Under the pieces are notes generated by a model that made no database searches, was not told where the DNA came from, and saw nothing but the letters and a program-made list of their open reading frames with translations. Of a stretch of 64,000 nt of DNA, positions 26,568 through 30,794 are shown one piece after another. Every line of letters begins with the position of its first letter. Position 1 is the first letter of the stretch. This DNA is from Microcoleus sp. FACHB-68 (GTDB lineage: Bacteria > Cyanobacteriota > Cyanobacteriia > Cyanobacteriales > Oscillatoriaceae): contig NZ_JACJOT010000009.1 of NCBI RefSeq assembly GCF_014695715.1, positions 124,001 to 188,000 on the forward strand. The letters run 5' to 3'. The translations under genes were made by a program, and so were the position numbers.

Positions 26568-26640
26568 GGGGAATTAGCTCAGCTGGTAGAGCGCTGCGAT
26601 CGCACCGCAGAGGTCAGGGATTCGAGTTCCCTATTCTCCA
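26568..26640 (+). tRNA. tRNA-Ala (anticodon CGC)
   Basis: A 73-nt cloverleaf. Acceptor stem GGGGAAT/ATTCTCC contains the G3:U70 wobble pair that identifies alanine tRNAs. The anticodon stem CTGCG/CGCAG encloses loop ATCGCAC, giving anticodon CGC. The HIP1 octamer GCGATCGC lies inside the anticodon arm. No encoded CCA. It borders the CAST relic, consistent with the known preference of type V-K CASTs for tRNA genes. Confidence 0.95.
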
Positions 26641-26648
26641 TTAGTTTT

Positions 26649-26695
26649 TGTCGAATGTCACATTATTTATCCGTGTTGACACATTGTTGTCCGCG
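26649..26695. repeat. CAST right end with two TnsB-binding-type repeats
   Basis: The terminus TGTCGA at 26649 is followed by two direct repeats, TGTCACATTATTTATCCG at 26656 and TGACACATTGTTGTCCG at 26677, spaced 21 bp. This layout (TGT terminus plus repeated about 18-bp TnsB sites) fits the ends of V-K elements. It lies 8 bp after the tRNA 3' end. Confidence 0.7.
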
Positions 26696-26718
26696 ATGCT
26701 AAATTACCTAAAATTTTT

Positions 26719-26827
26719 CCTTCAACCCGCCCCTATTCGGGAGGTTTGTTGAAACGCTAGAGAATCCAACTACTTTTTTTCTTTTAGGATTTTTCACCCT
26801 GTCCCTATTCAGGAGGTTTGTTGGTAA
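26719..26827 (-). CRISPR. relic CRISPR array: two 37-nt repeats, one 35-nt spacer
   Basis: Read on the minus strand, the well-preserved repeat at 26719-26755 starts GTTTCAACAAACCTCCCG and ends GGGGCGGGTTGAAGG, the same frame as V-K CAST repeats (37 nt, GTTTCAAC start, GTTGAA end). A second, degenerate copy is at 26791-26827 and matches at 28 of 37 positions. The period is 72 bp and the spacer is 26756-26790. A short tail after the last repeat (26718 downwards) could be a former homing spacer, but I see no match to the neighbouring tRNA. No complete cas gene is present. Confidence 0.75.
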
Positions 26828-26847
26828 TATTGCCATGTGGTCAGATA

Positions 26848-27046
26848 TCACCATGCCTTATAAATGCGGTATACAAGAACGATAGCAGACATATAAAATC
26901 GACTGGGTTTACCGAGAACTAGGGGTGCTGTTTTGATATTTGCTAAACAGTTGTTTGACTAGACCCGCAAGCTACCTACCCTGCTGTCGCCAAGTTTCAA
27001 AGTCTGGATATGTGTCAACTTGTTTCAGTAGTTCGTTGCTAGTTAG
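26848..27046 (-). pseudogene. cas12k: cas12k N-terminal fragment (frameshifted)
   Basis: Translation of the minus strand gives NELLKQVDTYPDFETWRQQG in one frame, a TAG stop, then LAGLVKQLF, and in another frame SRFYMSAIVLVYRIYKAW ending at TGA 26848-26850. These match the N-terminal region of Cas12k (NELL-x-QLG-x-HPDFE-x-W and the PSRFYMSAI-x-YIYK motif). At least one nonsense codon and one frameshift are present. The remaining 500 or so residues, including the RuvC-like region, have been deleted; the fragment is fused almost directly to the CRISPR repeats. The 5' end is overwritten by the HNH gene's last codons. Confidence 0.8.
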
Positions 27047-27863
27047 TAATTTCCTTACCTATAAAAATTTCTTCTCTATGACGACGAATAAAATCAGGGT
27101 GCGGGTGAAATTTGTTAGGAAAATGTATTTGTTGCCCGCAATAACCGATAAAGTTGCGATATAAGGTTTCATCCGGTAAGAAACTTTCCAGATATGCACT
27201 AATAATAAGTCTATAATCCTCATCAAATGTAATCAGCCCCTTGTCAAACGCTGTATCTTGAGTACGAGCAAGACACAAACCATTATGAGGATTAAGCCGA
27301 TGCTCTATGTAACTACCCCAGGGTAGTATATGGCTTGCAACCAAAAGTTCGGGAATTGGATTACCAGTAATGCAGCAACGGCTGTTGTAGTTAGCTAAAA
27401 CAGTTTTACGGAAAAAATCCTGTCCTATTCGAGCTTTTACGCTCACTGTTGCTTCTGTTGAACCAGTGGGCTGACTTCTAGGTGTTGTAATCGGTATAGG
27501 GTTATTAAATTTTCGTTTGTTAGGTAGTTCATACTCTTCAGGTATTAAATTTTTAAATAGTTCTTGAAACCGTTCTTCACTTTCAACTCCAAGTTCTTCC
27601 CAATTGTTATAAAACTCTTGCCAAATTTCTCTGTCTGCTTTACTCGCATTGCGAAGACCTTGAACACCTCTGGCTTTTAATAGAGGATCAAGTGAAGCCA
27701 AATTACATAGCTTCATACTTAGGCTGCTTGGTGTTCTTCCTAACTTGTTAGCAACTTCAATAATAATTGGTGTTTTTTCATCTAGCTTTCCAAACGGAAG
27801 CTTGCAGTATAAATTCATTGCGATAATTAGTTCATCTCGTAACCAACGCTTACCTACAGCCAT
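27039..27863 (-). CDS. HNH endonuclease, probable restriction enzyme cargo
   Basis: A 274-residue protein with an intact frame. N-terminal 130 residues are helical (GRTPSSLSMKLCNLASLDPL), a segment often seen before HNH_2-type nuclease domains. The nuclease domain covers about residues 145-250: RCCITGNPIPELLVASHILP (Cys pair and first His), NPHNGLCLARTQDTAFDKG (central Asn; the usual third His position is Gln here). It follows the methyltransferase relic by 12 bp, a restriction-modification arrangement. The catalytic His-to-Gln difference occurs in other family members as far as I recall, so activity is open. Confidence 0.8.
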   Translation of the reverse strand: MAVGKRWLRDELIIAMNLYCKLPFGKLDEKTPIIIEVANKLGRTPSSLSMKLCNLASLDPLLKARGVQGLRNASKADREIWQEFYNNWEELGVESEERFQELFKNLIPEEYELPNKRKFNNPIPITTPRSQPTGSTEATVSVKARIGQDFFRKTVLANYNSRCCITGNPIPELLVASHILPWGSYIEHRLNPHNGLCLARTQDTAFDKGLITFDEDYRLIISAYLESFLPDETLYRNFIGYCGQQIHFPNKFHPHPDFIRRHREEIFIGKEITN

Positions 27864-27874
27864 TTTTTAGTACC

Positions 27875-28901
27875 TTAACTATTTAAAACTATTATCTCCG
27901 CTAAAAGAGGCAGGACAGAATTCCCAAGTAGCTCAAACATTCTCGTTATAGGTGCATCAAGTACAAAATGATCTGGGTAACTTTGCAGTCCAAGCGTTTT
28001 AATTTATCAGGTATATTTTTATATTTACCCTCTTGATACATGATGCTGAATATATACAAATTCTTATTTTTATGCGAACGACAAATATGATTCCTTACCG
28101 TATTGTTAGCTTGAATTCTCATTAGCTTTTGAGACTCGGATTGAGGAAAAAATTATAAGCTTTAGGAGATTCAATTTGGTTGGGGGCAGTGTTTTTACTC
28201 TTCAAAGGTAAACATCTAGGTTCTAATTCTGGTAAATCTCCAATTGCTTCCCCTACAGAGACGGGAAAACCTATATTCGCATCTGGAAACTCGAAAGCTA
28301 GATTCGCATCTTTACGTCTACCAACAATGAATAAGCGTTTACGAATTTGAGGAACCCTGTAATCAGAAACAGTGAGAATTTGATAGCTAAGATTATAGCC
28401 TGGATAATCACGGTTTTTTCTACTTGAGCCATTCTCTAGATCTCTTGTCAAATTAGAAAATATCCAGTGATTGAGGAGATAATTCACATTTTCAATTACA
28501 AAAAACAAAGGTTTGTAGTATTTAACAAATCTAACAAACTCTTCATATAAAAAATTGCGGGCATCACTTTCAATATGTTTGCCTAATGATTTCATTTTAC
28601 CAATGCCTACTACTGAAAATACTTGGCAGGGTGGCCCCCCTATTAAAATATCAATTTCTCCCGGCTTGAACCCCAGCTTACTAAAATCAGTAATAGATTC
28701 GATAGACTGAGCATCACACATTAGTTTACAGCTAGGGAAATTTTTATAATGAGTTCTTATTGCATGAGGATTTTTATCAATTCCCCCTAATATTTTACAG
28801 CCAGCATTCTGAAAGCCTAAGCTCATCCCACCTGCACCGCAAAAGATATCGAGTACCGTAGGTGATTTTTTATTTTTACTTTTCGACTTAAATTCAAGCA
28901 T
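27875..28901 (-). pseudogene. C5 DNA methyltransferase, frameshifted and lacking its TRD
   Basis: Motifs I (DIFCGAGGMSLGF), IV with catalytic Cys (GGPPCQVFS), VI (ENV) and VIII (QIRKRLFIVG) read in frame from ATG 28901 to a premature stop at 28122. Shifting by one base at a T6 run (plus-strand A's 28147-28152; seven would restore the frame) continues with FFPQSESQKLMRI and NNTVRNHICRSHK, then IPDKLKR. A second break near 27990 jumps directly to LQSYPDHFVLDAP and MFELLGNSVLPLLAE (motifs IX-X) ending at TAA 27875. So the target recognition domain between IPDKLK and LQSYPD is deleted and the protein cannot be active. Its loss next to an apparently intact HNH gene is notable. Confidence 0.85.
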
Positions 28902-28907
28902 TATCAA

Positions 28908-29052
28908 AAAAACTGTACTACTTTTAATAATTTTACATTAACCTGTAGTTAGTCAATTATAAATATGAAAATATATTTCAAATTCAAGATTAATCTATTT
29001 TTAAAAAATCCATTTTTAATAAATCAAAACCTTGATAAAGAACTGCTTAAAA
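28908..29052. other. AT-rich cargo spacer
   Basis: A very AT-rich 145-bp segment between the methyltransferase start and the TniQ remnant. It likely holds the methyltransferase promoter. No tnsC remnant was recognised. Confidence 0.4.
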
Positions 29053-29605
29053 CTATACAATTATATGCCAATTCGCTATTTCTCCAAACCCCATAAAACA
29101 CCGCAGACACCACCCATCAACCCACAATCCCGGAATCTTAAACCTTGCCTTACACTTCGGACACTCTGGCAGTAAAGTCAATTCGTGCTTCTCACGGCTC
29201 TGCGTCTTCTTCAACTGAATTTTGCGACAAGGCACTTCAGCATAACACGCCCCACACAGCCGAATCGGCTCATGTTTCATCCGCACCCCTTCAGCAACAC
29301 CGAGAAGTTGACTATCTACCAATAGCACATCTGCACGGGTATGATCGCATTGCCAAACGCGATTGCTATACTCCAGCGATAAATGTTTGCCATCACGAGT
29401 CTTAACCGATAGCCGCGCTCCACTCCATCCCCTACTGCTGACACTTTGGGTTTGCTTTTGCATCTCAATAATTGGCTGTAAAACTCGGTAAACCGTACGT
29501 TAACTAGGATAATCCTCCTCCCCTAATTCAGTCCCCTTGCTTGTACCGGCAGCGCCACCTACTTAGGCGTAATTCGCTTACTGCCCTTATTGCCCTATAG
29601 GTACT
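29053..29605 (-). pseudogene. fused tnsB (middle) and tniQ (C-terminal half) relic
   Basis: From 29463 the minus strand reads TnsB-like: SRGWSGARLSVKTRDGKHLS and YSNRVWQCDHTRADVLLVD (start of the DDE catalytic core with its first Asp). Upstream, TnsB continues with stops: GNKGSKRITPK, then TAG, VALPVQARG, a frameshift, LGEEDYPS, TAA, RTVYRVLQPIIE. Downstream of about residue 55 the same frame becomes TniQ: GVRMKHEPIRLCGACYAEVP, then ECPKCKARFKIPGLWVDGW and CLRCF (zinc-binding pairs; one Cys of the usual CxxH is Arg). The C-terminal part of TnsB, all of TnsC and the N-terminal part of TniQ have been deleted, leaving an in-frame fusion of 136 codons. Confidence 0.85.
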
Positions 29606-29804
29606 GCCTTTTGTTCTAAAGCAGTGATTTTGTGTCCCAGGTACGCATGACATTAGTAATATCTAGAGGTTCAGGCGGTGAGGGTGAAGTGCGTGAGATA
29701 GTTTGCACAATGATTTCTCAGTGCTATCGTCAATAATGAGGGAGGGTAAATCAAATCGGGTTGCGCTATCACCGAATTGTTTGAATTGAGGAGAATGAGG
29801 CGAG
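29606..29804. other. region upstream of the tnsB relic
   Basis: About 200 bp with no readable gene. If the CAST left end survives it should be here, but I found no convincing inverted TGTCG terminus. Confidence 0.4.
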
Positions 29805-30365
29805 ATGATCACCACTACTCAGGAAATTGCACATTTTTCAATAGAAGATTACCATCAGATGATTGCGGCAGGAATTTTGAGCGAGCGCCGCGTGGAACTA
29901 CTCGATGGGTTGATTTGGGAACTGCCGGCAGAAGGAACGGAACACACCTATTTTGAGGAAAATTTAGCCAAAAGTCTGGAACGCTTAACAGAGGGGCGGG
30001 CGTATGTCAGAGAAAACAAGCCAATCACTTTGTCAAATTCCGAACCGGAACCGGATATCGTCATCCCTAAATTACCGCGTTCACAGTATCTAGAGCATCA
30101 CCCATTTCCCACCGATATTTTATTGTTGATTGAAGTTTCCAAGTCCACGCTAGAACGCGATACTTCAGTTAAGAAAAGAATTTATGCGCGAGAGAATATA
30201 CCAGAATATTGGGTCGTTGATGTTGCCGGCAGGAAGCTGATTGTTTATCGTTCGCCAGCGTTAGAAGATTATCAGCAAAAGATAGAGTTTTCGTCGATTG
30301 AAACAATCTCCCCGTTAGCTTTTGCCGATGTTGAGATTGCGATCACGCAGATTTTTTCCATCTGA
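29805..30365 (+). CDS. Uma2 family endonuclease-like protein (DUF820)
   Basis: A 186-residue PD-(D/E)XK-fold protein of the large cyanobacterial Uma2 family. Seen: FSIEDYHQMIAAGILSERRV (N-terminal helix and VELLDG strand), the acidic EPEPDIVIPK at about 87, the ILLLIEVSKSTLERD strand with the E-x-K core, and YARENIPEYWVVDV. The genuine role of these proteins is unclear; many are near transposons. It is adjacent to the CAST relic but looks intact. Confidence 0.85.
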   Translation: MITTTQEIAHFSIEDYHQMIAAGILSERRVELLDGLIWELPAEGTEHTYFEENLAKSLERLTEGRAYVRENKPITLSNSEPEPDIVIPKLPRSQYLEHHPFPTDILLLIEVSKSTLERDTSVKKRIYARENIPEYWVVDVAGRKLIVYRSPALEDYQQKIEFSSIETISPLAFADVEIAITQIFSI

Positions 30366-30794
30366 TGGGCGATCTTTTTGGCTACTAGGAGCAATCTTGA
30401 CAGCTTGCCGGTCATCAATTGCTTTAACATGAGTGAACAATCGTTCATCTCACAGCAGCTTTTTAGGAATTCTTAGAATTGAAAGCCAAATTCTAACTCA
30501 ACAAATGGGATCGCTATCCCGTGTTAACCGGGTCATTGAGCCGCTTAATTGCCCGATTCCCAAAGCAGACTTCTTTACAAACGGTTTGAATTGTTTCCTT
30601 CACGGTGTGGCCGGTTTATATTTCAAGGAAGGATCATTAAACAGAACTCTAGTAATACTAAATCCGGTTAGGGTTGGCGACTAAAAAAATCGGTTGCGAC
30701 AGAGACACCCGCCCGAATTGCCAACTGCGTTTCGCTCCGCAAAAAAAGAGTCTGACTTAACCGGATTTGATATAAGTTCTCCCCCAACAGGGTT
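30366..30794. other. intergenic region with an inverted-repeat element
   Basis: About 430 bp. The 3' half is a small element bounded by AAATCCGGTTA at 30660-30670 and its inverse TAACCGGATTT at 30758-30768. No supported gene; an 83-codon plus-strand frame at 30433 shows no motif. Confidence 0.45.
30660..30768. repeat. MITE-like 109-bp inverted-repeat element
   Basis: An 11-bp perfect inverted repeat (AAATCCGGTTA at 30660-30670, TAACCGGATTT at 30758-30768) encloses about 87 bp. The size and ends suggest a non-autonomous miniature element. Confidence 0.45.

Follow-up and report, generated by a model that had tools for sequence, protein, structure and literature searches.

Transposons that carry a type V-K CRISPR-associated system (V-K CASTs) have a published order of parts (PMC9938897), in which the CRISPR array and an anchor spacer adjoin the tRNA-side end of the element, termed the "left end" in that paper. 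According to the same source, the PAM lies 46-82 nt from this end with one exception, restriction-modification (RM) systems are frequent cargo, and 12 degenerate Cas12k proteins were set aside. V-K elements are without TnsA, and their copying is described as replicative (PMC11406308). The rate at which RNA-guided transposons land in nature, their lifespan and their death seem little measured, and we met no survey of these matters in the literature searched.

Here we describe a locus in the 6.5-Mb genome (G000) of Microcoleus sp. FACHB-68, contained in a window of 64,000 nucleotides (the whole stretch of DNA that was analyzed, G000:C9:124001-188000, whose numbering is used throughout). Beside a tRNA-Ala(CGC) gene, positions 26649-29609 very probably hold a decayed type V-K CAST that would no longer function as a transposon. 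Its genes and repeats are all on the minus strand, and their order from the tRNA gene is a TGTCGA end, a CRISPR repeat, a spacer, a degenerate repeat, cas12k, an HNH nuclease gene, a broken methyltransferase gene and tniQ-tnsB, as published for V-K elements (PMC9938897). A preliminary description, based on the letters alone, had named such a series of parts, and every one of them was found at its place and in that order by inspection of the sequence, Rfam, and comparisons with profiles and relatives; the identity of the cargo, the lack of a tnsC match and of a homing guide, and a tnsB scar shared with sister species go beyond it. The relic resembles V-K CASTs in its order of parts, its V-K-type repeat, its TGT end with TnsB-like repeats, its position after a tRNA gene that points at the element, and its RM cargo, but differs from them in lacking TnsC, most of Cas12k, the place of the tracrRNA, the anchor spacer and the tnsB-side end. 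Decayed V-K CASTs are a known kind, degenerate Cas12k being already in print (PMC9938897), and like the proteins set aside there the relic has the broken cas12k of a V-K element; it differs from them in that its relative age follows from a three-species scar and that its target can be named. New here are the tnsB scar common to three species, the sharing of the tRNA-Ala target with an element of another genus that has a matching guide, and a sequence pattern for orphan ends.

The tRNA-side end (26649..26714) was recognized by its terminal TGTCGA and its repeats, through an end pattern described below, and has the same layout as the ends in two relatives, G027 and G053. As the preliminary description had it, TGTCGA at 26649 lies 8 bp past the tRNA-Ala(CGC) gene, which ends at 26640. 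By eye, two TnsB-site-like repeats can be discerned at 26656-26673 and 26677-26693, and a weaker third at 26696-26714. Next to this end stand the two V-K-type CRISPR repeats that had been proposed, identified by an Rfam match and by layout: the nearer one (26719..26755, minus strand) scores 38.2 bits against Rfam CRISPR-DR15, for which the gathering score is 36, and a degenerate copy (26791..26827, minus strand, outer limits approximate) follows 72 bp on from it, with a spacer of ~35 nt in between (26756..26790, minus strand). The spacer has no second copy in its own genome at up to three mismatches, and its exact 24-base core is absent from the viral contigs searched. Its single 22-base plasmid match (E 0.04) was taken as chance. 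None of three congeners (G000 and the sister species G001 and G002) yielded a tnsB-side end, and for this reason no target-site duplication can be demonstrated.

Beyond the degenerate repeat lies the cas12k fragment (26821..27037, minus strand), seen by profile and by direct comparison, which comprises codons 34-63 and 67-105 (those up to codon 95, at 26851, are firm) and contains one stop and one frameshift. The Cas12k profile NF038191 matches 26927-27037 (E 1.7e-4) and 26821-26946 (E 8.8e-4), the sole matches in the genome at E <= 0.001, although both are weak and under the family cut-off, and the search also rings in two of 14 control genomes. When the two adjacent pieces were compared directly with six Cas12k proteins of relatives, with low-complexity filter and composition correction off, the joint E was 2.9e-13, against a best value of 0.37 for the backwards window; two unrelated forward stretches at ~35.5-36.6 kb, glutamine-rich by eye, reached E values of 7.6e-4 and 0.019 in this comparison. 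Chance resemblance is disfavored by the backwards-window control and by the reversed end pattern, which gives 2 matches as against 33. The N-terminal cas12k fragment that had been suggested is thereby confirmed for codons ~34-95, the only part of the effector that is represented. Relative to the element of G027, the stop codon of the HNH gene adjoins cas12k codon 34, and cas12k similarity stops at ~codon 95, immediately short of the degenerate repeat, so that the rest of cas12k and most of the array are gone, as presumably is, judging by position, the place of the tracrRNA.

At the other side of the relic, a C-terminal tniQ fragment (29056..29310, minus strand, residues 82-167 of 168) is in one open frame with a tnsB fragment (29299..29609, minus strand, codons ~101-206 of 560, interrupted by stops and a frameshift), of which 29516-29609 is common to both sister species. 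In comparisons with relatives, TnsB codons 123-206 were placed at 29544-29299 (E 4.4e-33), codons 101-132 in another frame (E 0.009), and TniQ residues 82-167 at 29310-29056 (E 3.7e-30); TnsB and the short TniQ of V-K type are thus present as fragments, in keeping with the TnsB core with stops and the TniQ C-terminal half of the preliminary description. Relative to the element of G027, tnsB codon 206 is joined to tniQ residue 82, and neither tnsB codons 1-100 nor the tnsB-side end is left. Because neither Pfam nor NCBIfam assigns the tnsB-tniQ ORF to a transposase family, its identification rests on the comparison with relatives. No TnsC match was obtained in the window at E <= 1, and the expected place of tnsC is the deleted stretch between tnsB and tniQ. 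The protein search that the preliminary description had proposed bore out Cas12k, through weak profile matches, and TnsB and TniQ, through relatives, but neither TnsC nor any Pfam or NCBIfam transposase family. Its proposal of a decaying element whose interior collapsed by deletions is supported by the Cas12k, TnsB and TniQ matches and by the comparisons with relatives and sister species. Elsewhere in the host genome there is a second TniQ-like fragment (G000:C8:157440-157629), ~5.8 kb after a tRNA-Val(GAC) gene. The 15 kb around it yielded no Cas12k, TnsB or convincing repeat, and the first 460 bases past that tRNA showed no TGTCGA end.

The cargo between the TniQ and cas12k pieces, predicted in the preliminary description, consists of an open HNH endonuclease ORF of 274 aa (27039..27863, minus strand; Pfam HNH_2) and a broken DNA cytosine-5 methyltransferase gene (27878..28907, minus strand), in which 261 open codons, matching positions 2-196 of 324 in the Pfam DNA_methylase profile, are followed by a frameshift and an internal deletion. 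The nuclease scores 317 bits with the PADLOC HNH family and 133 bits with the type II HNH family, and its best solved relative is an HNH endonuclease, with a match limited to residues 136-244 of 275. The cargo fits the PADLOC HNH and type II methyltransferase models, as do type II RM modules with an HNH nuclease and a C5-methyltransferase, but differs from them in its broken methyltransferase and is thus not an intact pair. At E <= 1e-20, 21 of the 291 genomes compared, G000 included, have a relative of the HNH protein. The HNH gene, the unbroken gene remaining in the relic, may or may not still be acting, and the relic presents the testable case of an RM cargo in which the nuclease ORF has survived the methyltransferase.

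It is conceivable, if rather unlikely, that the host has kept this nuclease for defence, unaccompanied by its own methyltransferase, the rest being a decayed carrier. Besides the open frame itself, this idea draws on three genomes of one genus (G263, G039 and G276; L094, L095 and L096), in which the HNH gene is likewise open and the adjoining methyltransferase is without its middle part through a deletion different from that of the relic; in the 15-kb neighborhood of the pair in G276, no CAST gene was apparent by eye. The HNH dN/dS between the window and these three genomes is 0.27-0.28. However, the methyltransferase part gives a dN/dS of 0.15 (window versus G276) and has few lesions, such that the open HNH frame may be luck, and in neither sister species (G001, G002) does HNH find a match at E <= 1e-20. 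Both genes are constrained over much of the time spanned by these comparisons; dN/dS averages over the time before the element died and is therefore no proof that the HNH gene is kept now.

The presumed target of the V-K element is the tRNA-Ala gene itself (26568..26640, plus strand, anticodon CGC), identified by ARAGORN, Rfam and geometry, with a GTA PAM at 26586-26588 and a protospacer at 26589-26605. The end lies 60 nt from this GTN PAM, within the published range, as compared with 66 nt in G045, a genome of another genus; since GTN motifs are common, the distance counts as support and not as proof. In G045, an apparently intact V-K element with open cas12k, tnsB and tniQ frames (Cas12k open, 826.6 bits in the profile search) stands at the same tRNA-Ala(CGC), and its 17-nt guide GAGCGCTGCGATCGCAC, behind a truncated repeat, matches the adjoining tRNA gene exactly, which upholds the earlier proposal that the tRNA is the target. 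This target and its GTA PAM also occur in the tRNA-Ala of the window and in G137; there, an end likewise stands 60 nt from the PAM, accompanied neither by a guide nor, within 1.5 kb, by similarity to cas12k.

No such homing guide (a 17-nt anchor spacer) was found in the window, where the best 17-mer has 7 mismatches, in a test that recovers the exact copy in G045. An exact 13-base search likewise finds a tRNA match behind the repeat in four of five reference elements (G045, G027, G053 and G019, not G018) and none in the window. In G027 the guide is flanked by the last repeat and the third TnsB-like site, and these two neighbors are nearly adjacent in the window; from this comparison of two sequences, the guide has perhaps been lost in a small deletion. 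Two reading frames at ~32.4-32.8 kb of the window are presumably psbH and psbN, which, like the V-K element, fit a cyanobacterium. Reading downstream of tRNA-Ala in 14 relatives (mostly 15-20 kb, ~400 bases in G022), we found psbH close after the tRNA in G031 only, at 271 bases, and TniQ pieces at 3.7-4.0 kb in G038; no general empty site could be defined among the 14.

G045 also bears on the number of elements involved. It holds two tandem V-K elements after the one tRNA-Ala(CGC) (G045:C50:107388-161421), the first with cas12k at C50:108809 and tnsB at 137858, the second with cas12k at C50:140067 and tnsB at 161230, and cas12k is open in both. By analogy, the end, array and cas12k of the relic might derive from one V-K CAST and tnsB-tniQ from a second in tandem, the two having been joined by a deletion. 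We consider this improbable, because one element explains the data in fewer steps. Moreover, both halves of the relic are distant from the first G045 element and closer to one loose group, although the fragments are too short to decide: its TnsB is nearest to G027 (82%), its TniQ is about equally near to G053, the second G045 element, G027 and G041 (62-67%), and its Cas12k is nearest to G018 and G027. The G045 element with the matching guide shares tRNA, protospacer and PAM with the relic, but in addition to its open Cas12k and its guide it differs in TnsB and TniQ, which are only 50% and 41% identical to those of the relic. Three V-K protein fragments on one strand and in canonical order, together with a V-K-type repeat, speak for a V-K CAST as the origin. 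That the relic is a short non-autonomous derivative which another V-K element could still mobilize in trans, as the surviving tRNA-side end with its TnsB-like sites might allow, is highly improbable, given that the tnsB-side end was not found in three congeners, that the host has no Cas12k over the family cut-off and that its genome holds this copy only.

Further evidence on the decayed element comes from the sister species. G001 and G002 align to the window up to 26647-26648 and again over 29516-30601, at 92.4 and 93.0%, and the tnsB scar is present in all three genomes, which agree in its CAG-to-TAG stop, 1-nt frameshift and upstream break. Because the stop and the frameshift are common to the three species, tnsB was probably dead in their common ancestor, before the species split, barring later exchange between them. 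Neither sister has the tRNA-side end at tRNA-Ala; other DNA is found there instead. Between the flanks lie islands with copies of the 3' part of the tRNA (a tandem pair of islands in G001, a single one in G002), as well as ~2.1 kb of other DNA. The two G001 islands, of ~21.5 kb each, are bounded by these copies (G001:C35:120876-163931; L042-L044). The G002 island begins with a tyrosine recombinase, and by similarity those of G001 appear to be of the same kind. Since the sisters carry tRNA-bounded islands where the window has a V-K relic, two kinds of mobile DNA have used tRNA-Ala(CGC). Directly beyond the relic, within the stretch common to both sisters, is a Uma2-family gene (29805-30365, plus strand), to which candidate defence models in PADLOC are weakly similar.

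In our proposed history, an ancestor of the genus would have acquired a V-K CAST 8 bp past its tRNA-Ala(CGC) gene, in an insertion guided against that gene by a short homing RNA with the GTA PAM, the target GAGCGCTGCGATCGCAC and a distance of 60 nt, the guide being deduced from G045. Given replicative copying without TnsA, the inserted copy was probably never cut out afterwards. Decay by deletion and point mutation would then have removed the tnsB-side end, the first ~100 tnsB codons, the middle from tnsB through tnsC to tniQ, the flanks of cas12k, most of the array and the guide. Judged by sequence, with an end and genes missing and no Cas12k over the cut-off in G000, G001 or G002 by profile search, the relic should no longer move. 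Against this history stand the missing guide and tnsB-side end, the weakness of the Cas12k profile matches, and the lack of the tRNA-side end in the sisters.

To see how widespread such ends are, we used a pattern with 15 fixed bases, TTGTCGANTGNCANATTA, derived from the end in the window and from a few in relatives. It gave 9 matches in 8 genomes among 60 relatives (none when reversed) and 33 matches in 27 among 291 genomes of the order (2 when reversed). Two of the 33 had no locus, leaving 31 for examination; some look orthologous (G001/G002 and probably G127/G189). Most of these ends (22 of the 31) lie 6-45 nt past a tRNA gene that points at them, and five precede a tnsB match by 275-305 nt, with the match running to the edge of the fetched piece; one stands before a TniQ piece, and three fall in no class. 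Cas12k similarity occurs within 1.5 kb of seven of the 22 tRNA-side ends: those in G027, G053 and G233 belong to Cas12k listed as full length without stops, and the other four, window included, have fragments or stops. The remaining 15 have none within that limit, which can miss long arrays or insertions, and one of them (G241) has only ~130 bases before the contig ends. No Cas12k over the cut-off was found in 14 of the 27 genomes with a TTGTCGANTGNCANATTA end. Ends of other types escape the pattern, among them those of G045 and G018. For all end types together, 74 of the 291 genomes have Cas12k over the cut-off, some as fragments, so living V-K elements are common too.

One reading of these counts is that V-K insertions form a permanent fossil record: as they are not excised, guided strikes on tRNA genes would leave ends that outlive the machinery, and for the TTGTCGANTGNCANATTA end type orphans would outnumber tRNA-side ends with whole elements. 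Taken jointly with the view that tRNA-Ala(CGC) was struck repeatedly and independently across genera, we hold this reading to be evenly balanced between right and wrong. Our literature searches, judged by titles and abstract openings, brought up no work on orphan V-K ends. Because TTGTCGANTGNCANATTA picks out dead copies beside tRNA genes against a low background, turnover and target choice would be countable across these genomes. Among individual loci, G173 (G173:C1:5208726; L124) has a collapsed V-K element, with an N-terminal cas12k piece containing stops tens of bases from an end after tRNA-Val(TAC). Finally, both sister species carry a lone V-K end 36-39 nt after tRNA-Leu(TAG) (G002:C20:85493, L117; G001:C41:29556, L118), followed in G002 by a TniQ fragment ~3.4 kb on.
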